Shown here: positions 2-35,965 of the stretch, piece after piece
Layout: every line of letters starts with the position of its first letter
Numbering within the stretch: the stretch's first letter is position 1
Origin: Flammeovirgaceae bacterium
GTDB taxonomy: Bacteria; Bacteroidota; Bacteroidia; Cytophagales; Cyclobacteriaceae
Direction: 5' to 3'
Length of the DNA: 41,839 nt
Assembly (NCBI GenBank): GCA_013204595.1
Contig: JABMNK010000113.1
Span: 1-41,839 of the forward strand
Program-made: the position numbers and the translations under genes
Notes under the pieces: generated by a model
What the model saw: the letters and a program-made list of their open reading frames with translations, nothing else
Databases searched by the model: none
Told to the model about the DNA's origin: nothing

Positions 2-3000
2 AATAATATGACTGTACAAAGTGCCTTTTCACCGAGCGATGCGGCGGTACCGATCATCACCAATATTCGATGGCAAGATGCCCAAGTGGATGAATTGATA
101 GATCGCGCAATATTGACCTTTAGTGAACCTGTAAACATCACGGATGGCAGTAGCGGTGATGGCTTTGGTTCGATATTAGTAAACGATGGCTCAGCGGTAA
201 CCCTAGACAATGCAGATTATGCTGCCAGCAGCGTGACCAACTTAAATATAAACTTTACTGGAGATCAAAGTACTTTAACCGCTGGCGCATCTGGGTTGAG
301 TGCAACTTATAGTCAGGCAGGAGCAGGTTCTATCATAGACCTATCTGGAAATGAAATCGCTGACGGAGGTACTGCTTTTACTTATACGGAACGTATGTTG
401 ACTTGTATTGATAATGAATACATTGCCCTGCAAAATCCTATTGTCATTCGTGAATCAAGTCCAACTGATTTTGCCGATGCAGGAACCCTTATTTTTACTT
501 TGAGTTCAGGTTTTTCTTTTGAGCCAGTAGGAGATGCAACGAGTATCATTACCGCTAGTTTGGTTTCTGGATCCACCGATATCGGGATTACAGCGGCAGT
601 GGTAGCTTCTGCTACCATTATCATTACCTACACCAATGATGGGGATGCGAGCGGCATTGATAAAATAACCATCGGCACAGGCCTTAAAATTAAGTATACG
701 GGATCAGAGGTCACGACCTTTGGTACATTGACCAGAACTGGTGGAACTGCTCAGCTTAATGGGGTCATTAGTTATGGCTTTAATATCTTAGACTTGGAGG
801 TTGAGCAGGTAGCTCCTTTTACTACGATAACGAGTGGATCCCCGATAGATGGTCAAGTACTATTGACAGATATAGATATCTGTCAGGATAATTTATTTGA
901 TGCCAGTTATTCTTCTTTAGCCAATAATGTTACAGATTTTAATATATCTGTTGATCCAGCTCCTTCCGTAGGAGATGCTGCTGCCAATGCGGTCAAATGG
1001 TATAGTGGTTCGGATCCAAATGCTTCTCCACAAGTGCACATCAATACTTTATTTGATGTTACCAGTGGAGATGCCACCGTTGATTTTGCAGATTTAACTC
1101 ATTTGAATCAATCGATTGCAGGCAATCAAAACATTTGGGTCACCCAAACCAATACAAGGGGATGTGAGAGTGCGCCGATACAGATTGTCGCTACCATTCA
1201 CGAGTCTCCAGATGCGGAAGCGATTGCCGGTCTTGATTTTGATGATAATCCTTATACAGCCTCTGCTTCTAGCGCTTATCCAAGTGTGTGTAGTGGGGAT
1301 CAAATTACCCTAGGAAATATTTATAATGGCGCTTTCAGTGGCTATACCTTTAGATGGACTAATAGTGATGCAAGTTATACTTCGATATCTGCCAACCCGA
1401 TTACGACGGCGCCTACAAACACGTCTTCAACTGGAGATTTGTCAACATACACTATTCAGGATTTTTATTATTATTTAGATGTTTCGGATGCTAATGGCTG
1501 TCAGGCACCGGTTAATGGTACTTTGCCAGGATCCCCCAGTGTCAATCGACAGTCGGCAGTCAAAGTAGTTGTCGACCGACCAGTATTTGCAGATATTTTT
1601 TCTAAAAATGGCTTGACCTTTTCTGAAGAGCAGTTTTTAGGTCAACCCATATATGGTGATTTTGGTTCTATTACAGAATCAGATCCCACAGCTACCGATG
1701 CTTCATTGTCTGTAGTTTATAATACTCAACCTTATTCAAATAGAGGAACAGTTTATGGTACGTATACAGGGAGCTTCACCGGCGAAGGTCTAGGAGTACA
1801 ATATTTGAGGACCATTGGCGCGGCCACTAATTCAGTCGTTGACTCGGTATCATTTACCCCATATGCCGTAGGATTGACTTCTGGTGCAGGTACGGTACTC
1901 ACTTACACTTTGACAGAAGACTTTACCGGTTGTACGGTTTCTGTTACCGAAACCATCAAAGTGGTTCAGGATGAAAGTCAGATTTTTAAAGAAACACCTG
2001 ATTTCCCGAAAACTAGTCTTTTGTACATTAATAAATGTATTGATGATGGTGATTTTAATATTGTCGAACCAGACGCTGGAATTCCCGCGGGGTTTACTTT
2101 GGTCTCCTATAGCGGGCCTGGTGTCACTAAAGTAAGTGGTACGGGTAATAATCAGGTATATAGTATCAATATGAATGCGGCTTTTAACACGCCAGCTTTG
2201 GCCAATTCACTGGTAGTAAATGCCAACGGCACTCGTACCGCCACTGTTTATCGAACGCTTGAAGATAATACGACAAACAATCAATTTGTCGACGGTAGTA
2301 CTGAAATTATTATCACCCCACTACCGGTGATTACCTTGTATACTACGGCAAATAGTCTCTTAGAATCCTATTATTGTGATGTTGATGCAGATAACAATAA
2401 TCAATCTATTGATTTTAACATGACCCTATTCAGTGCAGGTGCGCCCGCACCAACAAAAAATGACGTCAATCCATTGAACTATATATTGGAGGTCATTGGC
2501 CCTACTACTGATTTATCGAATTATGGAAATATTTCAACCATTACGGTTTCTGGCGATGGTAGTATTCAAGCCAATATAGATCTGGCTGCGATCATAGTAG
2601 ATGCGAGCATAGGATTAACTTCCGATGATGCTGCCAACAACCGAGATGAGATTGAATATCGGCTCACCGTCTCATCGGCTGATGCGGATGACCCTTTAAA
2701 TACCTCAGGACTTACCAATACCAATTTTGGATGTGACAACACGACCACCCATGACTTTACTGTGTTCAAGCGGCAGGGCAAACCTACGTTGGACTTATCT
2801 GACCAATCAGTAAAAAATATTTTGGTAAATGAGATTGCTGAGGATAATTATTTGGTTGAGTATTGTTATGGAGAAGCCATTCAAGAGGTAGAGGTTTCAT
2901 CAGTCAATACCTCATTGCCCACTGTAATTAAGTGGTACCAAGATGATAATTCCACGACCAGTGGCAAAGATATTGAATTGACAGTGCCTAATGGGCGAAA

Positions 3001-6000
3001 GGTACCTGCCTTTATTTTATTTGGCAACAATACGCCACAGCCAGGTACTTATGTATTTAATTTTACGCAAACGAGTAATGTTAGCTTGTCCTATGATGGC
3101 TGTGAGAGTGATTACGCGATATTAACTATGGTCATTCATGACGTTCCTGACGCGCCTCGATTAGACACGTTAACGTCCAATAGAGGAGATGAGCAAATTG
3201 TGGGAGGATCAGCAGCTGGGTACTATGCTTTTGAATATTGCGAAGGTGAGCCGGTCGAGGATTTAAACTTATTAATAGGAGCTATTTCGAATGATTTCTC
3301 AACCGATCCATCTCCTAGCTGGAATTTGGCTGCTCTTCCCGGTGCCGGAGGTAGTTATGGCGCTCAGCAAGTTACCATCAATGCGGGAGGTAGGATTCAG
3401 TCAGAATATTTACCACGAGTGAATCAGGTTTCCTTCAAAGCAAAATCGGCAGGAGGCACGACCAAATTGGAGGTAAGATATTACAAAACAGCCGCCACTA
3501 CTACTCCTGAGGTATTGGGTACCATTACGACTTCCAGTACCAATTTCACTACCTATACTTATACCATTGAAGAATTCAATGATCCTGCAGTGACTAGTGT
3601 CAATTCTTTTGTTCGCTTTGTAGAGACGTCTGGAATTGCAAATGCGATTATTGATGATTTTGCTGCAGTCGCAACAATCGATGATGTCTCCTTTTATGAA
3701 TGGTACAAAGCGGATGGTACCACATTAATTGATGGAATGGCCGCGCCAGGAACTGTTCAAGACAATCAAGGTGAAGGAGCTATTGCGGCAGCGGGTAATG
3801 TCATAGCTTCAGCGGCAGAGTTGTTTACTAGTATCGGTGCAGGAACAGATAATACGCCGGACCCTGGAACTTATACTTTTTATGTAGCCCGTCGAGAAGA
3901 CCGCAATATTGGCTCGGCGATAGATGACGACGGGAATTCAAAAACGGCCCAAATCTATGAAGGTTGTCAAAGCGCTTTGACAAGAATTGATATTTTTGTA
4001 TATGGGATTCCTGACACCCCTACAGGTATGCTCACAGACATCAATGCCAGTAGTGGAGAATTAATTTACAACACCAGAATATTGCCTACAGATGCCATTT
4101 CATCACCAGGCTTGACCAACGTACAATACCGTTGGTATCGTAATGCAAACGATCCAAAAGAGGATGTCGATGAAATGTTTGACCAAACCGATGAGAGTGC
4201 TACTACTAGTTTTGCTAATATCACTACTCTGGGGGAAGGATTTGCTGGGCTAGGCACAAATGGTTATTATCAAGTTTCAAGTACCTATAATACGACCATA
4301 TACTTAAGTCAAGTCACTCACTTGCTTAATCGGGTGACAAGTTCAATCACGACTACTTTTGGTGGCTGTGAGACCAAAATAATAGATCGGGCGGCAATAG
4401 ATATTACCTTTTATCCAATCGCTGATAAGCCGATAATCGGTACTGTTGATTATCAAGATAATAAAACTTTTTATGATGAAAATTCGGACAATATAGGTGA
4501 AGTAGTAGAGTTATCTTATCCATATATTGGACTCAATGGAGGGGAAGAATTTTATGCAAAAACTTTTTATACCGACCTTTTAAATGGTCAATATTTCACT
4601 TGGTATTCTTCAAATGCGAGCGGTATCCGAAATCCGCTTTCAGCCATAGCCGTGGCGGACCCCAAAGGGGAAGTTATTACCGCAGCAGAAATGTTGATAG
4701 CGGGTATAACCAATAATGAAATTAGATATTTTTTGGTAACTCAGACAACTGATGTGGAACCAACTAGCTTGTACGAGGGATCTGAAAGTGAAGGCACCTT
4801 ACTCAAAATAAATATTTATGACGTACCTGATGAGCCAGTAGAAATATCATCTTCCAATAGCGCGGATCCTGGCAAGGTTCATTTCTATTATTGTGAAGAT
4901 GAATTAATAGAACCCATTGATGTTAAATCTTATGATAATGATTATCCAGGTGATATTATATTTTATTGGTATAAATCAGAGTTCGATGCCTTGTCACAGG
5001 ACAGTACTAAACGACTAAGTACCGTAGACCCAACTGGGGCGCAGATTTTGCCAAACGAAATGCTTAATGATGATTTTGCCAATGATTTTTCAACTCCATT
5101 TGATTTGTCGGGTACCGTCAGTCCTGGTACTTATACTTTTTATGTTACCCAAGCCAGTAATAAGCGTTATTTACCTAGTACCGGATATGTGGGCGATCCT
5201 TTCTTTGGTAGCGAGGGCGATCCGCTTGAATTTATTATTTATGTGAGAGATATCCCTATAGTCCCATCCGTATTAGATCCAACATTATTTATATGTGAGA
5301 CTGATGGTGCACCGACCTTCACTATTTCTGCGTTTGATAGTAAGATCACTTATCAATGGTATGACAGTCTAGGTACCTTATTGGGCGTAGGTCAGACGCT
5401 CAGGCCTCAAAATTTCACAGAACCAGGTTTTTATGGTTACGACGTCACACAAAAGAAGGATATTAATTTAAATAATGAAGGTTTTGAGGGATGTGAATCA
5501 CCTGTCACAGAGTTGATGTTGAAGGTGAGCGCAATACCTGATGAACCGATTACTACAGGAGTGTTTGATGCGTCAAATAATTACTACGTATATGAAATAT
5601 GTGAGGGGGATACTATTGCTGATTTCTTTATAAAGAATCCTTTACTTGCAAATCAATCTAGCGGTACCTTAGAATATATCTGGTACGATAAAGAGAATAA
5701 GCGCCTCAATACTACCTCATCCGAAAACTTTAATGTAGAGAACTATGTCGATCTAACGACCCTTAAACCGGAGGTGCCAAATGATTTCAGGTTTAGGGTA
5801 TCGGTTACTACAGATATTAATGATAGTGAGAATTTTGATGGATGTATCAGTGGTTATACTGATATTATTTTAAGAATAAATGGCCTTCCAAATCTTTCTT
5901 TTTCGAGTATTGCAACGAATGATGCTTATTGTTTGGAGGAGGATCAAATTATATTCAGTGCGCAGTCATCGGGTATCGATGGTGTGGGAACTTTTTCATT

Positions 6001-9000
6001 TTATAATGACTTTTCAAAATTTGGAACAGGATTGACCTTGGGAGACGCCAATACGGCCTACGTGAATTTGGATATAACACATCTTAGTGATGATGATTTG
6101 GTTAATCCGATAGAAAAGAGTAAAAGACTGATGATTGGTGGTCGTCCGACTTCACGAAATGTGTATTTCAAGTTCACAGACATCAAGGGATGCGTTAATG
6201 TAGATTCTGTGACCAACATCATAATTAATCCCTATCCAGCGATTGATTTTAAGATTGATAATACCTTGATTGATACTTTTTATACCTGTCTCAATGAGGA
6301 GTATGATGTTTTTGAAGAACGAATTTTCGGGCTATTGGGTATCAATGCAGAGACAGGTGCAGGAATTGGTGGTGGTGGTATCTATTCTGATTTCAGAATT
6401 TATGACAGCAATTCTAAAGAACTTTCTTTTGGTTTGAGTGATGACTCTCAGGCAGAGGTACAGTTTACCCCAAAAGATGCCCGTAAAAGCCTATCATTGA
6501 CAGATGATAATATTCAAGATTATAATCCTACAAGTACCTACATTGTTTCATTTACGCATATGGACGATCAGGGATGCACAAGCACAGTTGATAATACCAT
6601 AACTGTATTTCCAAAACCTCAGTTTGGTACTACTGAAAATGGTTTTGTGATTACGAATAAGGCCTGCGTGGCAGATTTACTAAATATTGATGTGAATCTT
6701 GGAAATATGCCTAATAATGAGGCTACTTTTGAGTGGAAAATCCGTAATGACATTGTACCTGATCAGTATACGAATCAAGTGTCAATTATTTCTGACGACT
6801 ACAATCTAGGTTCTGGGGGCGTTTTCATTACGGTCAAGGCGACTAATGATGAAACGGGCTGTGCTTGGCAGCAGACCGAAGGTAAATCAATAGGGATTAT
6901 ACCAACACCTGAATTTCGTTGGGAAAACATAACAACAGGTGAAGACATGTTCTTTGAATTTAGAGAGCGAAAATTGGAGCTTTTTGATAGTGCATGGCAG
7001 GAAATTCTGAAATTTAGTTTTGAATTGGAGGGTGGTAGTACCAATTCGTTTAAGAAGACCTTCCAAAGAAATGGAATTAGTAATCAAATATTAGATACCT
7101 TAGGTGTTTCCTTATCTGATCCAGGCGTTTATAAAGCTACTTTTTATTTACAATCGACTGCTTTCTGTGATAGCACTTTAGTGAGAGAGTTTAACGTACT
7201 TAATAAGATTGTTGTTCCTTCAGAGGGCTTATTTCATACGTTTGATGGGAGTGCTGAATATTGGCATACCGACTCGATAAGTGTAGATGGTTATTATGAT
7301 GGGCTGGGATACGACTTGACCAAGGATAAAGTCGCTTTGTCTGAAGCAGATTTGCGTTACTCTACTTGGTCTTGGAATCAACCTAGAGGAGAAAAAATCA
7401 ATCATGATAATGCGCCAACTTATGTTATGGATTCGGCGTGGGTTACCAATCCAACTGGAGGTTATGCGGGAAAAGGGGCTGATAATTCCTCAGCTGAGCA
7501 TTCATGGGTTTATTCTCCTTCCTATGATTTATCATTGTTAGAAAAGCCAACGTTAAGTTTTGACTATTCATCTGACTTATTGGTAACGGATGGGGTAGTA
7601 CTGCAATATTCCATAAATAATGGCGCTACATGGCTTCAGTTAGGATCATTTGATTTTGTGGCGGATGGCGGTCAAGGGATTAGTTCTGGTATTAATTGGT
7701 ACACCTTTACTGGTATTCCCGGTAATCCGGGTAATTTCGATGTATTTGATCGTAGTGCCTACAATCCAGCAGGGTATGGCTGGAATATGGCCACAGATAA
7801 TCAATGGAGGCGAGCGATTCACAAAATTGATCTCAAGGATGATAATGGTCGTTTAATAATACCTAAAGAGGGTTGGTCTGATATTAGATTTAGATTTGCT
7901 TTAGGTTCTATGTCAGGACAAAAAAAGGACGAAACGGGTCTTGATTTAGAAGGATTTGCCTTTGATAACTTTAGTTTATATAACCGCGATAGGGTGGTGT
8001 TAGTCGAATCTTTTGGGTCACTTTTAGACGCTAATAGCAGGCAAGCGGATTCAATTACCTACAAACGAATAAATGAATCTGATGATGGGAGTATTTGGAT
8101 TAGTTATTTTAGTAATTTAAATGAAGACGGATCGAATTCATTTGCAGATCCATTTTATAAGAGAAATGAGATAGATCCAGATGCAAGAAGATCTTTTTAT
8201 GGTGTCAACATCTTACCGACATCTATTCTTAATGGTGAAGTAGCACCTGCCGCGAGTGACGAGGAAATATTGAGTTGGAAAAAAAGCCAATTGGATCAGA
8301 AAGAGTTGGTTCGACCAGATTTTACGATTGAACTCGTGGATCAATTAGTATCCGTAAATGACAGAATATCAGTGACGGGTAACTTTAGATCAAAAATTGA
8401 TATTAAGGATAATGAAACTGAGCTGTCATTTAGATTTTTTGTAGTTGAAAAATTCATAACAGGTCAGCGAATAGGTGCCTATCAGGAAACTGACACGATC
8501 AGGAATATTTTAAGAAAGATTTTACCATCAGCATCAGGGTATGTGGAGAAAGGTAGCGTAGCTGCGGGTGATCTGTTTACTTTTGAAGTTAACTGGGTCA
8601 TAGAAGGTTTGTATAACGTAGAACAATACTTACCTTATTTACCTCCCTTAAGAATTATCGCCATGGTTCAAAATGAAGTGACAACGGAGATTTATCAAGT
8701 AGCCTTTATTGACATTGATAGCAAGTCCAATACAATTACTGGAATTCAGGATAACTTGGCTGTGGGACAGGATTTTAGTATTTATCCAAATCCGGTTGAT
8801 AAAGAATTTAGAATAGCCTTTGAAAAGACGTTGCAAGAAGAAACAGAATGGATCTTATTTGACCAAATGGGTAGACAGAAATTGGTAGGTATTATTCCTA
8901 AAAACAGCACTGAACTATTGATTGAAGTTGAAGGACTAACCTCTGGTGTTTATTTTGTTCAGCTTTTTCACCCAAATTTTTTATGGGCTCCCAAAAGGAT

Positions 9001-9016
9001 TATTGTGATTCATTAA
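2..9016 (+). CDS. Giant T9SS-secreted modular adhesin-like protein (5' partial)
   Basis: The frame is open to the left edge of the window (two Asn codons precede the first Met at 8) and there is no signal peptide, so the true start lies outside; at least 3002 residues are present. Residues 15-125 (from the Met at 8) resemble an SbsA-type Ig-like domain (ILTFSEPVN). From about 290 to 2100 run Ig-like modules, each opening with a Cys-acid motif (e.g. YCEGEP, EICEGD), often with a WY pair, a PGTYTFYVTQ-like strand and a closing GCES-like Cys. Residues about 2495-2660 look like a jelly-roll binding domain, and about 2663-2743 resemble an Omp28/thioredoxin-like fold without CxxC. Residues about 2921-3002 (FSIYPNPVDKEF ... 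LTSGVYFVQL) are a type A T9SS sorting domain, so the protein is expected to cross the outer membrane and be surface-anchored or released. Ligand unknown. The sorting domain call is firm; the adhesin role is inferred. Confidence 0.9.
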   Translation, partial: NNMTVQSAFSPSDAAVPIITNIRWQDAQVDELIDRAILTFSEPVNITDGSSGDGFGSILVNDGSAVTLDNADYAASSVTNLNINFTGDQSTLTAGASGLSATYSQAGAGSIIDLSGNEIADGGTAFTYTERMLTCIDNEYIALQNPIVIRESSPTDFADAGTLIFTLSSGFSFEPVGDATSIITASLVSGSTDIGITAAVVASATIIITYTNDGDASGIDKITIGTGLKIKYTGSEVTTFGTLTRTGGTAQLNGVISYGFNILDLEVEQVAPFTTITSGSPIDGQVLLTDIDICQDNLFDASYSSLANNVTDFNISVDPAPSVGDAAANAVKWYSGSDPNASPQVHINTLFDVTSGDATVDFADLTHLNQSIAGNQNIWVTQTNTRGCESAPIQIVATIHESPDAEAIAGLDFDDNPYTASASSAYPSVCSGDQITLGNIYNGAFSGYTFRWTNSDASYTSISANPITTAPTNTSSTGDLSTYTIQDFYYYLDVSDANGCQAPVNGTLPGSPSVNRQSAVKVVVDRPVFADIFSKNGLTFSEEQFLGQPIYGDFGSITESDPTATDASLSVVYNTQPYSNRGTVYGTYTGSFTGEGLGVQYLRTIGAATNSVVDSVSFTPYAVGLTSGAGTVLTYTLTEDFTGCTVSVTETIKVVQDESQIFKETPDFPKTSLLYINKCIDDGDFNIVEPDAGIPAGFTLVSYSGPGVTKVSGTGNNQVYSINMNAAFNTPALANSLVVNANGTRTATVYRTLEDNTTNNQFVDGSTEIIITPLPVITLYTTANSLLESYYCDVDADNNNQSIDFNMTLFSAGAPAPTKNDVNPLNYILEVIGPTTDLSNYGNISTITVSGDGSIQANIDLAAIIVDASIGLTSDDAANNRDEIEYRLTVSSADADDPLNTSGLTNTNFGCDNTTTHDFTVFKRQGKPTLDLSDQSVKNILVNEIAEDNYLVEYCYGEAIQEVEVSSVNTSLPTVIKWYQDDNSTTSGKDIELTVPNGRKVPAFILFGNNTPQPGTYVFNFTQTSNVSLSYDGCESDYAILTMVIHDVPDAPRLDTLTSNRGDEQIVGGSAAGYYAFEYCEGEPVEDLNLLIGAISNDFSTDPSPSWNLAALPGAGGSYGAQQVTINAGGRIQSEYLPRVNQVSFKAKSAGGTTKLEVRYYKTAATTTPEVLGTITTSSTNFTTYTYTIEEFNDPAVTSVNSFVRFVETSGIANAIIDDFAAVATIDDVSFYEWYKADGTTLIDGMAAPGTVQDNQGEGAIAAAGNVIASAAELFTSIGAGTDNTPDPGTYTFYVARREDRNIGSAIDDDGNSKTAQIYEGCQSALTRIDIFVYGIPDTPTGMLTDINASSGELIYNTRILPTDAISSPGLTNVQYRWYRNANDPKEDVDEMFDQTDESATTSFANITTLGEGFAGLGTNGYYQVSSTYNTTIYLSQVTHLLNRVTSSITTTFGGCETKIIDRAAIDITFYPIADKPIIGTVDYQDNKTFYDENSDNIGEVVELSYPYIGLNGGEEFYAKTFYTDLLNGQYFTWYSSNASGIRNPLSAIAVADPKGEVITAAEMLIAGITNNEIRYFLVTQTTDVEPTSLYEGSESEGTLLKINIYDVPDEPVEISSSNSADPGKVHFYYCEDELIEPIDVKSYDNDYPGDIIFYWYKSEFDALSQDSTKRLSTVDPTGAQILPNEMLNDDFANDFSTPFDLSGTVSPGTYTFYVTQASNKRYLPSTGYVGDPFFGSEGDPLEFIIYVRDIPIVPSVLDPTLFICETDGAPTFTISAFDSKITYQWYDSLGTLLGVGQTLRPQNFTEPGFYGYDVTQKKDINLNNEGFEGCESPVTELMLKVSAIPDEPITTGVFDASNNYYVYEICEGDTIADFFIKNPLLANQSSGTLEYIWYDKENKRLNTTSSENFNVENYVDLTTLKPEVPNDFRFRVSVTTDINDSENFDGCISGYTDIILRINGLPNLSFSSIATNDAYCLEEDQIIFSAQSSGIDGVGTFSFYNDFSKFGTGLTLGDANTAYVNLDITHLSDDDLVNPIEKSKRLMIGGRPTSRNVYFKFTDIKGCVNVDSVTNIIINPYPAIDFKIDNTLIDTFYTCLNEEYDVFEERIFGLLGINAETGAGIGGGGIYSDFRIYDSNSKELSFGLSDDSQAEVQFTPKDARKSLSLTDDNIQDYNPTSTYIVSFTHMDDQGCTSTVDNTITVFPKPQFGTTENGFVITNKACVADLLNIDVNLGNMPNNEATFEWKIRNDIVPDQYTNQVSIISDDYNLGSGGVFITVKATNDETGCAWQQTEGKSIGIIPTPEFRWENITTGEDMFFEFRERKLELFDSAWQEILKFSFELEGGSTNSFKKTFQRNGISNQILDTLGVSLSDPGVYKATFYLQSTAFCDSTLVREFNVLNKIVVPSEGLFHTFDGSAEYWHTDSISVDGYYDGLGYDLTKDKVALSEADLRYSTWSWNQPRGEKINHDNAPTYVMDSAWVTNPTGGYAGKGADNSSAEHSWVYSPSYDLSLLEKPTLSFDYSSDLLVTDGVVLQYSINNGATWLQLGSFDFVADGGQGISSGINWYTFTGIPGNPGNFDVFDRSAYNPAGYGWNMATDNQWRRAIHKIDLKDDNGRLIIPKEGWSDIRFRFALGSMSGQKKDETGLDLEGFAFDNFSLYNRDRVVLVESFGSLLDANSRQADSITYKRINESDDGSIWISYFSNLNEDGSNSFADPFYKRNEIDPDARRSFYGVNILPTSILNGEVAPAASDEEILSWKKSQLDQKELVRPDFTIELVDQLVSVNDRISVTGNFRSKIDIKDNETELSFRFFVVEKFITGQRIGAYQETDTIRNILRKILPSASGYVEKGSVAAGDLFTFEVNWVIEGLYNVEQYLPYLPPLRIIAMVQNEVTTEIYQVAFIDIDSKSNTITGIQDNLAVGQDFSIYPNPVDKEFRIAFEKTLQEETEWILFDQMGRQKLVGIIPKNSTELLIEVEGLTSGVYFVQLFHPNFLWAPKRIIVIH

Positions 9017-11459: not shown

Positions 11460-14246
11460 TTACTGACCAATTAACTCTAAGTTTTGATGAATTCCCAATT
11501 CTAGCGCCGAAACACCCGTTTGCATCCATTTTGGCATGGCGGCTTCTTTTAGATAATAGTCAAAATATTGAGACATTCTGATATTAAAGTCAATTTGATT
11601 TTGAAGTTTCAATGGCCAATGAGGCTCCCCTTGATAATTGAGCATCCAAGCAGGTTTATTCAATCGTCTCAACGCCACAAAAAATTCAATCCCTTGATAC
11701 CAAGGCACATGCCCATCAGCATCATTATGCATAATCAGCAAAGGAGTATTGATTTTGTCAACAAAAAAGATCGGGGAGTTTTCAATATAGCGTAAGGGAT
11801 ATTCCCATAGCGTACCTCCAATACGGCTTTGTGTTTGCTCATATTGAAACATTCTGCTTAAACCAGTCCACCACCTGATACCACCATAGGCGCTGATCAT
11901 ATTGGGCACGGGTGCGCCGGCTTCCGCGCATTTAAAAATATCTGTTTTTGTCACTAGGTAAGCAATTTGGTACCCACCCCAGCTATGTCCTTGCACCCCA
12001 ATATGATCCTTATCAATAAATCCTTTTTCAATAAGAGAAGTTACTCCTGGAATCACGCTGTTATAGGCGCTTTGCCCTGGGTAACCTTCTATATAATGAA
12101 TATTGGGAAGGAAAATAACATATCCTCTTGAAGCATAAAAGCTATAATTGATGGTTGAACGTCCTGGAGCTGGTATGCTGTGTCTGTTTAGGCCATCGCT
12201 ACTTTTCTCATAAAAATTGACCAACAGGGGGTATTTTTTCTGAGGATCAAAGTTTTCAGGTTTGATCAGTAACCCCTCAAGCGGTATGCCGTCGAGCGAA
12301 GTCCATGAAACAATTTCAGCCGTCCCCCAGTTGTAGTTTTTTTGTTGTGGATTGGCGTTTGAGATTACCGCTATTTTCTTAAATTTTTCCGTGCTTAGTA
12401 AATCCGGAAAAGTGGTAAAATTTTGCTTAGTGAAAATAATTTGATCTGAATCTTGAGCCAAACTGAAGTTGCGATATTGATAAGATCCGCTCATGAGTGT
12501 TGTGACATCGTATGTTTCATTATAATTCATATAATAAAGCGCTTCATGTTTATCTCTCTCATCCACTGCATGAAGTAATAATCGTTGATTTTGGGTGACA
12601 AATCTTTCTTCATCCTTTAATTTCAGGTATCTATAACTAAGTCGCTGAGCCCTACCGTTTGGTGTGATTTGTTTAGGGTTTAGGACGCCCAAAGGATCTA
12701 TTTCCCAGATATCATACCGATCATAAATTAATATTTTTTTATCGTCTTCAGTCCATGTCATAACACCGTAGGGATTCGGTAAATCAGGCGTATCATGGTC
12801 TTCTAGATAAAAAGGGACAAGTCGGTTGTCTGTTATTTTTGTAATTATATTTTTGTCGAAATGATAGGTATGCCATGCCGAATCTTTGGCTTCGTACCAG
12901 TAGGCATAGTTACCCATTGGAGATAATTTAGGAGTACCTAGCACATTTTGGGCTATCTTTTTTGAATAGCCCGAGCGAAGTTCAATTGCATACAAATCAA
13001 GAGGTGCCGGTGGACCTTCCCACGAAACAGACTTCTTGTAGGCGGCATCATTATAACCGATTAAATGAGTTCCGTCACCTCGATTACTGCTCAAGATATT
13101 TGGAATATGTTCAGAGCCTAATGATATGAATTTATTAGATTTTAGGTCAAAGGCACACAAAAATGATTTTTTTGAATCTTTTTCTTGCTCCACTTTTTGT
13201 TGTGGAAACAGGCGAGAATCTGTGTAAGTCCAAACTTCTACATTGACGATTTCATGCGCTAGTAGACTAGTGTCGGGAAGGATAGGGTAGGGCATTTTTC
13301 CGAAATACAACCAATCTCCATTGTTGGAAAAATTATTTTCAAAATGTTGACTAATTAAGTATTCTCCTTGTAAGAAGTCATCACTGACTGAAAGGATCGT
13401 CGAAGCTGAATCAATCTCCTCAGTCCATAAGTGGAGGGAAAAACGAGGCGTTAATACTTTGGTCGTATCAAGGTTTGAAACAAAGGAAAGTAGCGTTCCT
13501 ATTTCATTCCAACATAGTGATTGATAAATACCTTTAGATCTAAAAATAGGTTTAATTTCTTTTGAAAGGGTATTGAACTGGTAAACACCTGCTGCAAACA
13601 AACTATCATCCCCGTTGGAGACAAAAGCTACTTTACCCCCTTTTTCAGAAAGCAAATAGCTCGTCACAAACGGAAAGGTGAATTTCTCTAAACTATTCAA
13701 GTTTTTAATTACCAGGTCATATCCGTTTTCTTTGCTAGTGTCTTTATTTTTTTTCTTTGATTGCTGATTGGCGTCTAGAGGTTCTTGTAAATAACTTACC
13801 CAATTAGACCATTTTCCGGGAATTTTGTAGGAGATTATTTTAGGAATTTCTCTCAATTCCCCTGTTTTTAAATTAAATACACCCAATCCATCGGCCGGAA
13901 GTTCCTTCTTGGGAGTTTTGATTCTTTTCAGAGAATTCAGTGAGTCAATATCTGGTTTGATAGTGAAAAAGAGATGTTGAGAATTGAAACTAAATCGTGG
14001 TTTTGTTCCTTTTTCTGTCCGTAGTTTTTCGATGCCATCAAAAGTGGAAAGTACGATAATAGGATTCGCAATGCTGTTTTTAGTTAGCTCATAGGTAATC
14101 CATGCTCCATTGTTACTTATGGTTTCATTTTTAATTAGCGTCCATTCGTCATAGGCACTATGGTCAAGTATTTTTTTTTGTGCGCTAATGTCTCTGCCAA
14201 GCGCTATAGAGATGATTAAGAGTAAATACTTGAATGTTTGCCTCAT
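11460..14246 (-). CDS. Exported S9 family serine peptidase (prolyl oligopeptidase-like)
   Basis: The C-terminal third is an S9 alpha/beta hydrolase domain with nucleophile motif GHSWGGY (Ser about 755), an acid in the HNDADGHVPW segment and a His in GEPHW, all in the expected order. The N-terminal two thirds look like the beta-propeller of S9 enzymes. Such proteins cleave short peptides, often releasing dipeptides or acylated residues. The start chosen is the ATG at 14246, giving a good signal peptide (MRQTFKYLLLIISIALG ... SAQ) and 928 residues; an in-frame TTG at 14264 would add six residues and is less likely. The signal peptide points to the periplasm. It is divergent from the D-aminoacylase homologue at 14434 across a 187-bp gap and is followed 6 bp later by recQ. 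Substrate specificity cannot be read from the sequence. Confidence 0.9.
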   Translation of the reverse strand: MRQTFKYLLLIISIALGRDISAQKKILDHSAYDEWTLIKNETISNNGAWITYELTKNSIANPIIVLSTFDGIEKLRTEKGTKPRFSFNSQHLFFTIKPDIDSLNSLKRIKTPKKELPADGLGVFNLKTGELREIPKIISYKIPGKWSNWVSYLQEPLDANQQSKKKNKDTSKENGYDLVIKNLNSLEKFTFPFVTSYLLSEKGGKVAFVSNGDDSLFAAGVYQFNTLSKEIKPIFRSKGIYQSLCWNEIGTLLSFVSNLDTTKVLTPRFSLHLWTEEIDSASTILSVSDDFLQGEYLISQHFENNFSNNGDWLYFGKMPYPILPDTSLLAHEIVNVEVWTYTDSRLFPQQKVEQEKDSKKSFLCAFDLKSNKFISLGSEHIPNILSSNRGDGTHLIGYNDAAYKKSVSWEGPPAPLDLYAIELRSGYSKKIAQNVLGTPKLSPMGNYAYWYEAKDSAWHTYHFDKNIITKITDNRLVPFYLEDHDTPDLPNPYGVMTWTEDDKKILIYDRYDIWEIDPLGVLNPKQITPNGRAQRLSYRYLKLKDEERFVTQNQRLLLHAVDERDKHEALYYMNYNETYDVTTLMSGSYQYRNFSLAQDSDQIIFTKQNFTTFPDLLSTEKFKKIAVISNANPQQKNYNWGTAEIVSWTSLDGIPLEGLLIKPENFDPQKKYPLLVNFYEKSSDGLNRHSIPAPGRSTINYSFYASRGYVIFLPNIHYIEGYPGQSAYNSVIPGVTSLIEKGFIDKDHIGVQGHSWGGYQIAYLVTKTDIFKCAEAGAPVPNMISAYGGIRWWTGLSRMFQYEQTQSRIGGTLWEYPLRYIENSPIFFVDKINTPLLIMHNDADGHVPWYQGIEFFVALRRLNKPAWMLNYQGEPHWPLKLQNQIDFNIRMSQYFDYYLKEAAMPKWMQTGVSALELGIHQNLELIGQ

Positions 14247-14433
14247 GGTGTTATTTTTTTTCAATTTACCAATTTGACTTGATTAATGTCATGATTTTAA
14301 GCAAGTCTACATCAGTGGTGCTAATGAGTGATGAATTTATGCTGGAGCAAAGAAATTGGGAACTAAGCAATATTTTCACTACGTAATATTAACGACGGTT
14401 TTATTATATTACTAATCATTCAAATAAAACACT

Positions 14434-16086
14434 ATGAAAACGTTATATACAATTTTTGTAATTTTGTTTTTTTGCTGTGAGCAACAAAAATCAAGAGAAT
14501 TTGATTTAATCATTCGCAATGGAGTCATTTATGATGGTTCAGGGGAAGCGCCATATAAGGGTGATCTTGCTATTTCAGGGGATACGATTGTAACCATGGG
14601 CGATTTATCAACGGATATAGGTATCTCTGAATTTGATGCCAAAGGACTTTCGATTGCCCCAGGATTCATTAATATGTTGAGTTGGGCAAATGAAACGTTG
14701 ATCGCGGACGGTAGATCACAGAGTGATTTGAGACAAGGGGTGACGCTTGAGGTAATGGGTGAGGGGAGTAGTATGGGGCCTTGGAGTCCTTCGATGATTG
14801 AAGAGGAAATCACCAGTCAAGGGATTATTAAGTATCCGATAGCATGGTCTACGCTGAGTGGATACATGGCTTATTTGGAGCGGAAAGGCATTGCAACAAA
14901 TATTGCCTCTTTTGTCGGTAATGGTACGCTTAGAAGATATGTCATAGGGTATGATAATAGGCAGGCGACGAGTGATGAAATCGTCCAAATGCAATCGTTA
15001 TTAGCACAAGAAATGCAAGAAGGAGCCATGGGGATCTCTTCTTCTTTGTTATATGAACCAAGTCGCTATGCTGATACAGAAGAGTTGGTTGCCTTGTCGC
15101 AAGTTGCTGCTCGCTATAATGGTATGTACATTTCACATATTAGGGATGAAGGGCCTTATCTGATCGAGGCCATTGATGAATTGATTGAAATTTCACGAAG
15201 GGCCAAAATCTCGGCAGAGGTTTATCATCTTAAAGCTTCTGGATCCGAATATTGGAGCAAATTAGATACTGCTTTTGCCCATATAGAAGAAGCAAGGGCA
15301 CAGGGATTACCCATAACCGCTGATATCTATACGTATCCAGCATCTTCCACAGGGTTGCATGTCCAGCTTCCCGAATGGGTTCGAGAAGGGGGCGTAGCTC
15401 GTGCCATTGAAAGACTCAAAGATCCTTCCTTAAGAAGTCAAGTTTTAAATGATATTGAATTTGAGCATGGACCTGACAAAATATTATTTGTAGGATTTAA
15501 AAATCCTGACTTACGGATTTATTTGGGAAAGCGGCTAGATGAAGTAGCTCAAATTTTGAATAAATCTGCTGAAGAGGCCATGATTGATTTGATTGTCGAG
15601 GATGATAGCCGTATTCAAGTGGTCTATTTTTCTATGTCTGAGGAAAACATTGCCAAAAAAATGGCCAAACCCTGGATCAGTTTTTGTTCTGATGCAGGAT
15701 CCTTTACCAACCAAGGTTTATTTCTTACCCAGAGTACGCATCCACGGGCTTATGGATCTTTTATCAGGGTAATAGGCAAATATGTGAGAGATGAAAAAAC
15801 ACTTACTCTTGAAGAAGCTATTAGAAGACTTTCTTCTTTGCCAGCTGAAAATTTAAAAATTAAAAGAAGGGGAGCTCTTAAGCCTGGTTATTTTGCTGAT
15901 ATCGTCATTTTTAATCCTGAAAAGGTCAGCGATATGGCCACCTTTGAGAAACCGCATCAGTATGCCACAGGAGTGGCTCACGTTTGGGTGAACGGTGTGC
16001 AAGTTATTTTAAACGGAACTCACACAGGGGCAACCCCGGGTAGGTTTATCAAAGGTCCAGGCTGGGAAGTGCGAGATAAAGATTAG
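14434..16086 (+). CDS. N-acyl-D-amino-acid deacylase family lipoprotein with altered metal site
   Basis: A 550-residue amidohydrolase-superfamily protein. It has a lipoprotein-like N-terminus (hydrophobic run ending CC at 14-15), the opening strand DLIIRNGVIYDGSG, and the D-aminoacylase landmarks SHIRDEG (His235), VYHLKASG (His265) and SFCSDAGSF (Asp420). The first metal-binding motif, normally GFID-x-H-x-H, reads GFINMLSW, so both His are replaced (Leu82, Trp84), and the usual Cys of the VVGNCG segment is Gly in MGEGSSMGP. Known family members remove N-acyl groups from D-amino acids using Zn; this one may use a single metal or another mechanism, or may not be catalytic. Its last 4 bases overlap the convergent aminotransferase gene. 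A related protein with an intact HAH motif lies at 33320-34894. Confidence 0.85.
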   Translation: MKTLYTIFVILFFCCEQQKSREFDLIIRNGVIYDGSGEAPYKGDLAISGDTIVTMGDLSTDIGISEFDAKGLSIAPGFINMLSWANETLIADGRSQSDLRQGVTLEVMGEGSSMGPWSPSMIEEEITSQGIIKYPIAWSTLSGYMAYLERKGIATNIASFVGNGTLRRYVIGYDNRQATSDEIVQMQSLLAQEMQEGAMGISSSLLYEPSRYADTEELVALSQVAARYNGMYISHIRDEGPYLIEAIDELIEISRRAKISAEVYHLKASGSEYWSKLDTAFAHIEEARAQGLPITADIYTYPASSTGLHVQLPEWVREGGVARAIERLKDPSLRSQVLNDIEFEHGPDKILFVGFKNPDLRIYLGKRLDEVAQILNKSAEEAMIDLIVEDDSRIQVVYFSMSEENIAKKMAKPWISFCSDAGSFTNQGLFLTQSTHPRAYGSFIRVIGKYVRDEKTLTLEEAIRRLSSLPAENLKIKRRGALKPGYFADIVIFNPEKVSDMATFEKPHQYATGVAHVWVNGVQVILNGTHTGATPGRFIKGPGWEVRDKD

Positions 16087-17210
16087 CCTAGGACTTTCTT
16101 CAGTGTATCGTTAAATCGATCTATTTCTTCCAATCTGCCTGTGCTTATTCTACACCAGTCATTAAAAGGCGGGAACGGTCTACCCACCATAATGCCTTTA
16201 TCGAGCATCTGTTTTTCAAGAACCGAGATGTCGCGACCTGATTTAAAAAATACAAAGTTAGCATTTGAAGGTGCGTATTCTAGGTTTAGATCATCCAGAC
16301 CTTCCAAAATCATTTTTTTTGCTTGGATCGTTTTGCTCAGACTAAAGTCGTAAAATTCTTGGTCATCCAAGGCTTTTTTGGCAGCTTCAATGGCTAGTAT
16401 GTTGGTAAAGGCGACAATGTTTTGTCGCAATTTTGAGGCAATTTCCGGTTTGGCAATCAAATAGCCAATACGAAGACCAGCAAGTCCGTAAACCTTTGAG
16501 AATGTCCTGGAAACGATCACATTTTTACCCTTCTTCACAAAGGAAATCATGGATGGATAGTTCTTATCTTCAATAAAATCATAATAAGCCTCATCACTGA
16601 ATATCGTCACTTTATCGGAAACAGTATTGCAAAAATCAGAAACACGATCAGCAGGAAGTAGGGTAGACGTAGGGTTGTTTGGGTTGCATAGATAAATAAG
16701 TTTGGTTTTGCTGGAAATTCTCTTTTCCATTTCATCCAAATCATGCATCATGTTTTTGTCCACGGGCACCCAATTGACCGATCCACCCCAAAGAGTGGCA
16801 TAGGACATCATTGAAAGAAAGGTAGGTTGAGCAGCTATGATTTCACCGCCATTGATTCCATACATTAATCCAACTACCTTTAGTGCTTCCGTAGAGCCCC
16901 CTGCCAAAACAATATGATCTTTGGTTACGCCTTCCTTCGCTGCTATCTTTTCAACTAGTTCATTGCTGTAGCTAAAGGGATATCGGCAGGCGATATCAAA
17001 ATGGTCAATGATGCTTTGCCGCACTTTTTCTGACGGTCCGTAAGGATTTTCATTCGAATTGAGCCTTGCGATAGCATCAAGCGGTCGCGGATTAAACTTG
17101 CGTATTTCTTCCGCGCTTAGGGTATGAATGGGAGTTATACCGCCTATTACAGCTAAAGAACTCAATAGCCCTGCTCCTTTGAGCCAACTTCTTCTTGAAA
17201 GATCTGTCAT
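16083..17210 (-). CDS. Tat-signal class I/II PLP-dependent aminotransferase (HisC-like)
   Basis: A 375-residue fold-type I aminotransferase of the histidinol-phosphate aminotransferase-like group. Visible residues are NENPYGPS near 53, CNPNNPT (175-181), SDEAYYDF (Asp206, Tyr209 binding the cofactor), the Schiff-base Lys239 in SRTFSKVYGLAGLRIGY, and a C-terminal Arg in CRISTG. The N-terminus has a twin-arginine motif (LSRRSWLKGAG) followed by a hydrophobic stretch, so it is probably exported folded with PLP bound. An exported aminotransferase is unusual and the substrate is unknown; biosynthetic HisC is unlikely given the signal and the absence of his genes nearby. It lies 60 bp downstream of queD on the same strand and overlaps the D-aminoacylase homologue tail to tail by 4 bases. 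Confidence 0.88.
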   Translation of the reverse strand: MTDLSRRSWLKGAGLLSSLAVIGGITPIHTLSAEEIRKFNPRPLDAIARLNSNENPYGPSEKVRQSIIDHFDIACRYPFSYSNELVEKIAAKEGVTKDHIVLAGGSTEALKVVGLMYGINGGEIIAAQPTFLSMMSYATLWGGSVNWVPVDKNMMHDLDEMEKRISSKTKLIYLCNPNNPTSTLLPADRVSDFCNTVSDKVTIFSDEAYYDFIEDKNYPSMISFVKKGKNVIVSRTFSKVYGLAGLRIGYLIAKPEIASKLRQNIVAFTNILAIEAAKKALDDQEFYDFSLSKTIQAKKMILEGLDDLNLEYAPSNANFVFFKSGRDISVLEKQMLDKGIMVGRPFPPFNDWCRISTGRLEEIDRFNDTLKKVLG

Positions 17211-32980: not shown

Positions 32981-33319
32981 ATTTATCCAAGTTTAAGATT
33001 GAGACGAAGATTAAGAAATAACGATTTTTGATACATTAACTATCTGAAAAGTTTTTCTATTTATTAAGCTTATTAGCTTTATTGTCCATCACAAAGTTAA
33101 AGGTTAAAAAATTATTATCAAATAATTCCAAATAAAACCAATAGGTTGAATAGTTTGATTTTGGCTTATGACATGAAAAATATTTCATCGTGTGACCGGG
33201 GACTTATTGAAGTTTTTTCAACTGTTGGACATCATAAGGTTACGGAAACACCACTTGTCCTATTTCGGATTGATTCTTTTATAAATTGTGTATCTTAGAT
33301 GGTTGTCAATACTCAGTTT
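32981..33319. other. Divergent intergenic region
   Basis: 339 bases between the start of the DUF4280 gene and the start of the D-aminoacylase gene. It holds the plus-strand promoter candidate at 33270-33298. I see no gene and no clear promoter for the DUF4280 side. Confidence 0.5.
33270..33298 (+). promoter_or_regulatory. Candidate promoter of the D-aminoacylase operon
   Basis: TTG at 33270-33272, an 18-base spacer and TATCTTAG at 33291-33298, one mismatch from TAnnTTTG. The predicted transcript start near 33304 lies past the ATG at 33299 and so favours the ATG at 33320 as the real start of translation. Confidence 0.4.
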
Positions 33320-34894
33320 ATGAATAAAAAAATTACTCATTGCATTTTAGCTGTCATCTTGATGGCTGCTTGTCGGTCAGAGGAATCTTACGACCTCATC
33401 ATTATCAATGGATTGATCTATGACGGCACTACCGACCAACCTCAATTTACAGATATTGGTATCATAGCTGATAAGATTATCAAAATAGGCTCTTTGAAGA
33501 ATGCAAAGGCTAGGCAAACAATCGACGCTGCAAATGAGGTTGTTTCTCCAGGATTTATTGATTTGCATGCCCATGTTGAAGCGATTATGGCTTCACCCGA
33601 GGCTGAGAGTGCACTTAGACAAGGTGTGACGTTGGTGTTGGGAGGGCCAGACGGAGGTGGCCCTTCGCCGATGCGCCCATATTTAGATTCTTTAAGTACC
33701 TACGCTCTTGGCTTTAATATGGCCTATCTGGTAGGACATAATGCTATTAGGAAAAGCATCATGCAAACGGACAATCGACCCCCTACTTTTAAAGAACTTG
33801 AAGAAATGAAAGCAATGGTAAGAGAAGCCATGGACGCGGGAGCATTTGGTATTTCAACAGGGCTAAAGTATGTTCCAGGTTCTTTTTCTAATATGGAGGA
33901 GGTGATTGAATTATCAAAGGTAGCCGCTGCTTCAGACGGGATCTATACTTCGCATTTAAGAGAGGAAGGGCTAGGATTATTGAATGCTGTTCAAGAAGCC
34001 ATCTTGATCGGAAGAGAAGCCGATATTCCTATTGTACTTACCCATCACAAGGCGATTGGGAGACCTATGTGGGGCGCTAGTACTCAAACCTTATCAATGG
34101 TTGATTCGGCTAGATCGATAGGCCTAGATGTCATGATGGACCAATATCCCTATACGGCAAGTTCTACTAGTATTTCTGTACTCATTCCGACGTGGGCACT
34201 TGCAGGAGGCCGAGAGGCATTTAAAAGTCGGTTGGAGGATCCTGCTATTCATGAGCAAATTATTAATGAAATCATGTTCAACATAGAATTTGACCGAGGT
34301 GGTGCCGAACTAGCGGTGGTTCAATTTGCGTTTGTAGCTTGGAAACCAGATCTAAATGGTAGCACATTAAAGGATTGGGCCGTTGAGCGGGGCATGGAGC
34401 CGACTTTCCGGAATGGAGCCGCGTTAGTAATTGAAGCCGAACTTAATGGGGGAGCATCCTGTATTTTCCACGCAATTAATGAAGATGACGTCAAAAGAAT
34501 CATGCAACATCCCATGACGATGATTGCTTCTGACGGACGTTTGGCACACATAGGGGAAGGACATCCGCACCCACGGGCTTATGGGACATTCCCAAGAGTA
34601 CTGGGTCATTATGTCAGAGAACTTGGCGTCATAGACCTCCAAACTGCATTGCTTAAAATGACCTCTATGCCAGCTGATAGATTAGGTCTTAAGGATCGTG
34701 GCTATCTAAAAGAGGGAATGAAAGCAGATTTTACCATTTTTAATCCCGAAACCATAATTGACGAAAGCACCTTTGTAGATCCGCACCATTATCCAACTGG
34801 AATTGATTATGTGATCGTCAATGGAAAAGTTACAATTGAAAAGGGGTCATTGACTCAAGAAAGAGCGGGAATTGTATTAAGAAAGGGCAAATAA
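33320..34894 (+). CDS. N-acyl-D-amino-acid deacylase family lipoprotein
   Basis: 524 residues from the ATG at 33320, giving an SPII signal (lipobox MAAC, Cys18); the ATG at 33299 would place seven extra residues before it. It is an amidohydrolase with the metal motif GFIDLHAH (His83, His85), SHLREEG, VLTHHKAIG and MIASDGRLAH, matching D-aminoacylase ligands; the usual Cys of VVGNCG is replaced within VLGGPDGGGPSP. It would remove acyl or peptide-like groups from D-amino acids at the periplasmic side. The next gene, a LACTB-like serine hydrolase, starts 9 bp after its stop, so they form an operon, pointing to breakdown of D-residue-containing peptides. A paralogue with a broken HxH lies at 14434-16086. 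Confidence 0.9.
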   Translation: MNKKITHCILAVILMAACRSEESYDLIIINGLIYDGTTDQPQFTDIGIIADKIIKIGSLKNAKARQTIDAANEVVSPGFIDLHAHVEAIMASPEAESALRQGVTLVLGGPDGGGPSPMRPYLDSLSTYALGFNMAYLVGHNAIRKSIMQTDNRPPTFKELEEMKAMVREAMDAGAFGISTGLKYVPGSFSNMEEVIELSKVAAASDGIYTSHLREEGLGLLNAVQEAILIGREADIPIVLTHHKAIGRPMWGASTQTLSMVDSARSIGLDVMMDQYPYTASSTSISVLIPTWALAGGREAFKSRLEDPAIHEQIINEIMFNIEFDRGGAELAVVQFAFVAWKPDLNGSTLKDWAVERGMEPTFRNGAALVIEAELNGGASCIFHAINEDDVKRIMQHPMTMIASDGRLAHIGEGHPHPRAYGTFPRVLGHYVRELGVIDLQTALLKMTSMPADRLGLKDRGYLKEGMKADFTIFNPETIIDESTFVDPHHYPTGIDYVIVNGKVTIEKGSLTQERAGIVLRKGK

Positions 34895-34903
34895 CATTAA
34901 AAT

Positions 34904-35965
34904 ATGAAAAAGATTCTGTTGATTTTTTTTCTTGGAGTTATAGGGTTATCAATCCAGGGGCAGCGCCTAGAATCACAAGCCAATGATAGATTACAAGTAT
35001 TCGTCGCCACAAATGAAATCCCTGGCTTGAGTATTTCTATTTCTCAGAAAGGCGAATTGATTTATTCGAGGGGTTTTGGATTTGAAGATTTAGAAAATCA
35101 GCTGCCAGTTGATCCAAGTAAAACAAAATTTCGTATTGGCAGTGTCTCCAAAACGTTGACCGCTGCTGGCTTGGCATTGTTATACCAACAAGGGAAAGTA
35201 GATTTAGACATTCCTATCGAGAAATACGTTCCTAGCTGGCCAAAGAAAGCAGCTACTATCACCCTCCGTCAACTTGGGGGACATATTGCCGGAATTCGTC
35301 ACTATCAGGCGAGTGAATTTTATAGTTCAGAAAATTACCCCTCGGTAACAGCGGGTCTGGATATATTCATAAATGATCCGCTAATCAACATACCTGGAAC
35401 TGCCTATGTGTATTCTAGCTACGGTTGGAATTTAATTGCGACAGCTATGGAATATGAGGTAGACGTATCTTTTCTTGAGTTTATGGAGCAAGAAGTTTTT
35501 GATAGGCTTAATATGGAACATACCGTTGCCGAGCGCATGACTTCGGAGATCTCGCATAAAGCAAAATTTTATGAAAAAGAAGGGAAGACAGTAGTTCCCG
35601 CTGCCTATGTGGATAATAGCTACAAATGGGCCGGTGGCGGATTTTTGAGTACTACTGAAGATTTGTGTAGGTTTGGTCAAGCCCATTTGAAAGCAGGTTT
35701 TTTGAAGCAAAGTACTTTGGATGAGTGGATGCAGTCTCAAAAAACCAGTGATGGAAAAGAAACCGATTATGGTATTGGCTGGCGTACGTATAAAAGAGTC
35801 AATGGGCGACTTTATTATGGACATAGTGGGGGTTCTGTTGGGGGTACTACTTACCTTTTAATTCACCAAGCGTCTGAGACCGTTTTGGCAATTACCAGCA
35901 ACTTAAGTCCATTAAGTTATGATGAGTTGCCATTTGATTTAATGGATTTATTTACTAGCCAATAG
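34904..35965 (+). CDS. Beta-lactamase-family serine hydrolase (LACTB-like)
   Basis: 353 residues with a signal peptide (MKKILLIFFLGVIGLSIQGQ) and a class C beta-lactamase/penicillin-binding fold. The nucleophile motif SVSK (Ser80, Lys83) is present in FRIGSVSKTLTAAG; the Tyr motif is YSSYGWN, with Ser instead of the usual Asn; and the third motif is HSGGSVGG. The GIRHYQ segment is shared with LACTB-type peptidases. Relatives cleave peptides, D-amino-acid amides or esters rather than antibiotics. It is the second gene of an operon with the D-aminoacylase (9-bp gap), so a peptidase or esterase acting on D-residue substrates in the periplasm is a reasonable guess. Confidence 0.9.
   Translation: MKKILLIFFLGVIGLSIQGQRLESQANDRLQVFVATNEIPGLSISISQKGELIYSRGFGFEDLENQLPVDPSKTKFRIGSVSKTLTAAGLALLYQQGKVDLDIPIEKYVPSWPKKAATITLRQLGGHIAGIRHYQASEFYSSENYPSVTAGLDIFINDPLINIPGTAYVYSSYGWNLIATAMEYEVDVSFLEFMEQEVFDRLNMEHTVAERMTSEISHKAKFYEKEGKTVVPAAYVDNSYKWAGGGFLSTTEDLCRFGQAHLKAGFLKQSTLDEWMQSQKTSDGKETDYGIGWRTYKRVNGRLYYGHSGGSVGGTTYLLIHQASETVLAITSNLSPLSYDELPFDLMDLFTSQ

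Follow-up and report, generated by a model that had tools for sequence, protein, structure and literature searches.

The question raised by this locus is what becomes of a D-aminoacylase relative that has lost the metal-binding HxH motif of its family. Within the stretch of DNA analyzed here (41,839 nucleotides, referred to as the window), one gene reads GFINMLSW past the first barrel strand, and the original prediction attributed this to selection for a changed site rather than to decay. Sequence comparisons place the gene in a widespread, uncharacterized branch of probably exported D-aminoacylase relatives. What they add to the original prediction is a coupling between the loss of the first histidine of the motif and the presence of a glutamate, Glu110.

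The gene product and its predicted fold

The open reading frame, its coordinates and its GFINMLSW motif were all borne out:

14434..16086, + strand: D-aminoacylase-like amidohydrolase without HxH, 550 aa, predicted to be exported, possibly a lipoprotein

In a Pfam search, the 550-aa product matched Amidohydro_3 (E 6.4e-19), and among solved structures it is closest in sequence to D-aminoacylases (1rjp, E 1.9e-61); no NCBIfam model scored above its cut-off for this protein, the best being PRK09061 with 205.8 of 340 bits. An AlphaFold2 model built from a 22-sequence alignment (mean pLDDT 89.2, pTM 0.89) was compared with solved structures, yielding a VIA Z of 55.8 against 1v4y, with 466 residues aligned at an rmsd of 1.9. 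D-aminoacylase-type and OngB entries make up the nine top structural matches (VIA Z 54.1-55.8), and the next fold after the D-aminoacylase type is that of dihydroorotase, at 33.8. The protein is accordingly modeled with the D-aminoacylase (beta/alpha)8 fold and a small beta domain; its residues around 319-360 are extra, being without a counterpart in the 1m7j row.

Lost and retained active-site residues

The positions relevant to the active site are the following, all on the + strand:

14662..14685, +: GFINMLSW, past the first barrel strand (sequence alignments)
14677-14679, +: Leu82, in place of the first HxH His (alignment to D-aminoacylase)
14683-14685, +: Trp84, in place of the second HxH His (alignment to D-aminoacylase)
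14761..14763, +: Glu110, candidate metal ligand where barrel strand 2 ends, invariant in the clade and substituting for an Asn-Cys (or x-Asp) pair (alignments and model)
15136..15138, +: His235 (D-aminoacylase His220), metal ligand kept (alignment)
15226..15228, +: His265 (D-aminoacylase His250), metal ligand kept (alignment)
15232..15234, +: Lys267 (Lys252), substrate-carboxylate residue kept (alignment; role from PpOngB Lys254, available part of PMC12017989)
15691..15693, +: Asp420 (Asp366), catalytic Asp kept (alignment)
15745..15747, +: Arg438 (Arg377), substrate-carboxylate residue kept (alignment; role from PpOngB Arg379, same part of PMC12017989)

The alignment to D-aminoacylase agrees with the original prediction in placing Leu82 and Trp84 at the two HxH histidines and in finding His235, His265 and Asp420 still present. 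By fitting the published numbering with an offset of one, we take Leu82 and Trp84 to correspond to His67 and His69 of D-aminoacylase, and the lost cysteine position to be that of Cys96. The alpha-site motif HxH is absent, with LxW instead both in the window copy and in all 52 MLSW-clade rows, and the Cys/His/His beta site (subtype V) is not intact: its His pair is kept, the Cys is absent and a Glu is present. His235, His265, Lys267, Asp420 and Arg438 show zero exceptions among the lettered rows of a 92-row alignment. Tyr299 occurs in 51 of the 52 MLSW-clade rows, and Ser305 in at least 90% of the 22-row alignment A1 and in less than 94% of the MLSW clade. A second clade-typical acid, Asp92, is found in 58 of 58 rows with the Glu versus 5 of 34 others.

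The loop that reads G-N-C-G-x-S in D-aminoacylases is replaced by G-E-G-x-S, shorter by one residue. In the AlphaFold2 model Glu110 sits just past the strand 103-108, and His235 ends the strand 231-235. The original prediction assigned a Gly to the Cys position; the loss of the Cys is real, but the column in which it falls varies by alignment (Glu110 in two, a gap in one, Gly111 in one), so that Gly stands there under only one of three gap placements, and the invariant Glu110 that accompanies the loss had been missed. This Glu is invariant in the clade under every gap placement and is absent from the HxH homologues examined.

When the rows from all searches were pooled (124, one of which, the truncated frame L177, could not be placed), the Glu was present in 78 of 78 rows without the first His and in 0 of 45 rows with it; after removal of the rows found by the motif pattern only, the coupling still stood at 68 of 68 versus 0 of 45. 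The complete coupling describes one clade and may reflect a single evolutionary event rather than 78 independent ones. Among the 78, LxW is found in 61 (MLSW, including the two variants VLSW and PGLINMLSW), the remaining 17 carry MLGQ, MMDQ, IQSH, MLSH, NI/VLSHAY or MLSG, and the second His is retained in 7. At the Glu/Cys position, the 45 first-His rows have Cys in 28 cases, Asp in 16 and another residue in 1. The Asp rows, with x-D-G at the metal-Cys position of D-aminoacylase (e.g. L002, L051 and L123), represent a beta-site variant among HxH-type proteins.

Extent of the clade and signs of export

Protein searches independent of the motif retrieved relatives at 40-73% identity. Over the whole alignment, LxW/MLSW rows are 45.7-73% identical to the window protein and the closest homologue that has the first His reaches 38.9%, while HxH proteins reach up to 42% in partial local matches (L046, residues 139-545). 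Close homologues with an intact HxH, which the original prediction had named as the case against it, were not found in this comparison. With the motif columns masked, the MLSW rows (52 of 92) are joined in a single clade (SH-aLRT 100), and the 58 Glu rows likewise form one clade (SH-aLRT 99). The tree was obtained by a quick method and contains long branches, none of which lies within the Glu clade among the listed warnings. Before its construction, six fragments, wrong-frame or over-long ORFs were removed (two of L036, L120:5822-8440, L023, the masked piece of L016, and L020), followed by rows at least 85% alike, which reduced 102 rows to 92; in the whole-alignment identity comparison, five of these six were left out, L020 was kept, and added rows shorter than 420 aa and duplicates were excluded.

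Of 395 genomes sampled from the phylum, 46 contain the exact GFINMLSW pattern (27 of 171 genera), and the reversed pattern used as a control gave 0 matches; the occurrence of the motif exceeds chance. Relatives were also found in four further phyla, namely in Fidelibacterota (L154), in Acidobacteriota (L155 and L156), on an alphaproteobacterial plasmid of Croceicoccus (L174, 49.6% identity) and in Actinomycetota (L175, L176 and L178), the phylum names for L154-L156 being taken from the named records L016, L020 and L021 of the same genomes. An annotation was seen for one MLSW copy, that of Croceicoccus, which is labeled "amidohydrolase family protein", and an actinobacterial relative is labeled "D-aminoacylase". 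In the open-licence literature, no publication apparently treating the HxH-less Glu clade was found.

By a crude regular-expression count, 54 of the 63 rows that match PG[FL]IN[MV]LS[WHG] carry [AGS]C in a segment ahead of the first strand, which suggests that most copies are exported. The proposal that the protein is a lipoprotein is plausible but weak for the window copy, which has FFCC and is one of two rows with CC in place of [AGS]C.

A putative one-metal deacylase

With moderate confidence, the protein can be read as a working exported deacylase with one metal, bound at the beta site by Glu110, His235 and His265, with Asp420 as the base and an N-acyl (D-)amino acid as the substrate; we infer the metal binding, the role of Glu as a ligand, the deacylase activity, the substrate and the location. 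The alpha metal site would have been abandoned with the change of HxH to LxW, and a single metal would be kept at the beta site, where Glu110 would stand in for the Cys. As general base/acid, Asp420 would work on the metal-bound water, and Lys267, Tyr299 and Arg438 would grip the carboxylate of the N-acyl amino acid. It is the retention of these carboxylate residues that indicates an N-acyl amino acid as the substrate, probably a D-amino acid derivative or a D-amino-acid-ended fragment, which would be scavenged outside the inner membrane.

The likeness to D-aminoacylase (1m7j, 1v4y) and to N-acyl-D-glutamate deacylase (3gip) comprises the whole fold, the beta-site His pair, the catalytic Asp and the Lys/Tyr/Arg carboxylate set, whereas the clade lacks HxH, has Glu for Cys in a loop one residue shorter and carries a putative N-terminal export signal. 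The GlcNAc1A deacetylase PpOngB (PDB 9kb1) has the same fold (Z 54.5-55.1 against the predicted model). According to the available part of PMC12017989, PpOngB holds one beta-site zinc through Cys97, His222 and His252, with Asp368 as the base, and its Lys254, Tyr285, Asp368, Arg379 and Ser291 touch a sulfate believed to indicate the position of the substrate carboxylate. The same part of that paper shows the single beta-site metal for PpOngB, while for the MLSW clade it is only proposed; unlike the clade, PpOngB keeps and needs His68, His70 and Cys97, and the H68A and H70A substitutions abolish activity despite the single metal. In AfDam, a second, alpha-site metal reduces activity (PMC12017989, same part).

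In E. coli NagA (CE9), the alpha-site HxH is likewise replaced, by QxN, and one metal is present at the beta site (available parts of PMC3880350 and PMC6016474); the beta site of CE9 belongs to the Glu/His/His class (PMC12017989, in part), as proposed for the clade. A second-shell His has been suggested as compensating in one-metal NagA enzymes (PMC3880350, in part). In mycobacterial NagA, a QxN mutant has some activity left, with kcat/Km falling from 12.3 to 0.3, and an AxA mutant is dead (PMC6016474, in part). Since PpOngB H68A and H70A and NagA AxA are dead and QxN is weakened, loss of HxH would be costly unless compensated, and besides Glu110 no compensating residue was identified with confidence. 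E. coli NagA differs from the clade in belonging to a distant family and in acting on another substrate. The NagA Glu is located on a different strand.

The loss of the alpha ligands together with the gain of a new invariant acid, and the clade-typical Asp92, would also fit an active enzyme of other chemistry, either metal-free or using a Glu/Asp/His acid-base pair, that catalyzes isomerization or another reaction on a similar substrate. A further point in its favor comes from Croceicoccus, where the gene order is a DgcN homologue (446 bits versus a curated cut-off of 480), a 371-aa protein that matches no family and is of membrane-bound look by eye, a serine hydrolase and then the MLSW gene. 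DgcN is part of a racemization pathway for acidic D-amino acids (PMC12363236, available part), and its homologue in this cluster points to a pathway that includes racemization. However, the hydrolases have precisely this beta-site His pair and catalytic Asp, and positive evidence for another reaction is absent; we regard this explanation as unlikely.

The hints that the Croceicoccus cluster serves D-amino-acid use are thin. Ignoring kinship, DUF1611/DgcN genes occur in 21 of 34 Glu-clade genomes, classed by us among matches at E<=1e-100, versus 30 of 213 other sampled genomes. Among the Bacteroidota loci examined, G223 and G262 alone combined a DUF1611/DgcN gene with the Glu-clade gene, separated by about 6 kb. 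In another genome (G046), an ORF with serine-hydrolase and amidohydrolase matches (L186:4705-9584) lies beside DgcN-like and epimerase-like genes.

Genomic neighborhood and paralogues

Three further genes of the window require description:

16083..17210, - strand: HisC-like class I/II aminotransferase with a twin-Arg-like leader, convergent neighbor, common only to loci of the genus
33299..34894, + strand: D-aminoacylase paralogue bearing HxH (LHAH, PDGG), 37% identical, used as a comparison copy
34904..35965, + strand: serine hydrolase of the beta-lactamase fold (PF00144), immediately downstream of the HxH paralogue

The aminotransferase adjoins the MLSW gene as originally described, with a tail-to-tail overlap of 4 bases; it starts with MTDLSRRSWLKG, which by eye resembles a twin-Arg leader. 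An S9-type peptidase ORF (11460-14264, with TTG as the first start) also lies beside the MLSW gene, an arrangement seen in genus loci only. Assignment of a function from these two neighbors was rejected, as both are confined to genus loci (6 of 36 loci compared), and the aminotransferase, being so restricted, says little about function. Elsewhere the neighbors are mixed, and ten near ones taken from six loci comprise a TonB receptor, a short-chain dehydrogenase, GlcNAc-epimerase-like and gluconolactonase-like proteins, a PD40 propeller, a response regulator, an exonuclease, an S9 peptidase, a carboxyl transferase and a transglycosylase. At 8-9016 the window also contains a 3002-aa ORF whose only Pfam match at E<=1e-5 is a C-terminal Por secretion sorting domain.

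A second alternative is a catalytically dead partner that binds substrate and forms a heteromer with, or regulates, an HxH paralogue. The alpha ligands are gone but the carboxylate pocket has been retained, and a co-directional HxH paralogue of the Asp type adjoins the MLSW gene in G142, G192 and G297 and also in G020, a genome from another family; in G294 the MLSW and HxH-bearing domains even share one 1058-aa ORF (L107:1456-4629). Against this, a separate same-strand HxH paralogue adjoins only 4 of the 62 genes that are flanked on either side by 900 bases or more, and in G003, G006, G013 and G024 (91-100% complete) a search at E<=1e-3 matched nothing but the MLSW gene, so the paralogue is not needed everywhere. 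The invariant His/His/Asp set would, moreover, be unexpected in a dead partner, and we consider this alternative rather unlikely. Improbable to a still greater degree is a site rebuilt around Glu110 and Asp420 that dispenses with the classical, zinc-based hydrolysis of amides, with some members of the clade working together with the HxH paralogue, even fused to it, in a two-step processing of D-amino-acid conjugates.

In the window, the HxH paralogue, which has PDGG in place of NCG, is followed by the serine hydrolase (33299-35965), and both kinds of domain are fused in an 851-aa ORF of the same genome (L003:100-2652, contig C95). A serine hydrolase like that of Croceicoccus is a same-strand neighbor of 4 of the 62 flanked genes, or of 3 of 61 without Croceicoccus, the source of the idea; a fifth case (G438, L057) has a short flank and lies outside the 62. 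We estimate the chance rate at 0.5-1%, given that ten genomes had 6-21 PF00144 matches each, and as a functional clue this adjacency is weak evidence.

Selection versus decay

In six pairs among four relatives within the genus, dN/dS is 0.07-0.19, which shows purifying selection there; between the window gene and its relatives, synonymous sites are saturated, with pS about 0.8 and pN about 0.18-0.24. Selection for a changed site, as first proposed, is upheld by the single clade, the lack of a close HxH homologue in the comparison above and these dN/dS values, and the protein looks like a rebuilt active site rather than a decaying copy. That the gene is a degenerate outlier copy of a D-aminoacylase gene, as the loss of three known ligands might suggest, is hardly credible and is contradicted by the clade in the masked tree, which spans many genera with open reading frames and an almost unchanged motif, and by dN/dS well under 1.

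Implications

Metal motifs read alone might label the members of this clade as dead. The clade constitutes a natural test of which amidohydrolase ligands can be lost and what replaces them. If the protein is active, many environmental bacteria would possess a naturally occurring deacylase that lacks an alpha site, and it may bear on the recycling of D-amino acids.
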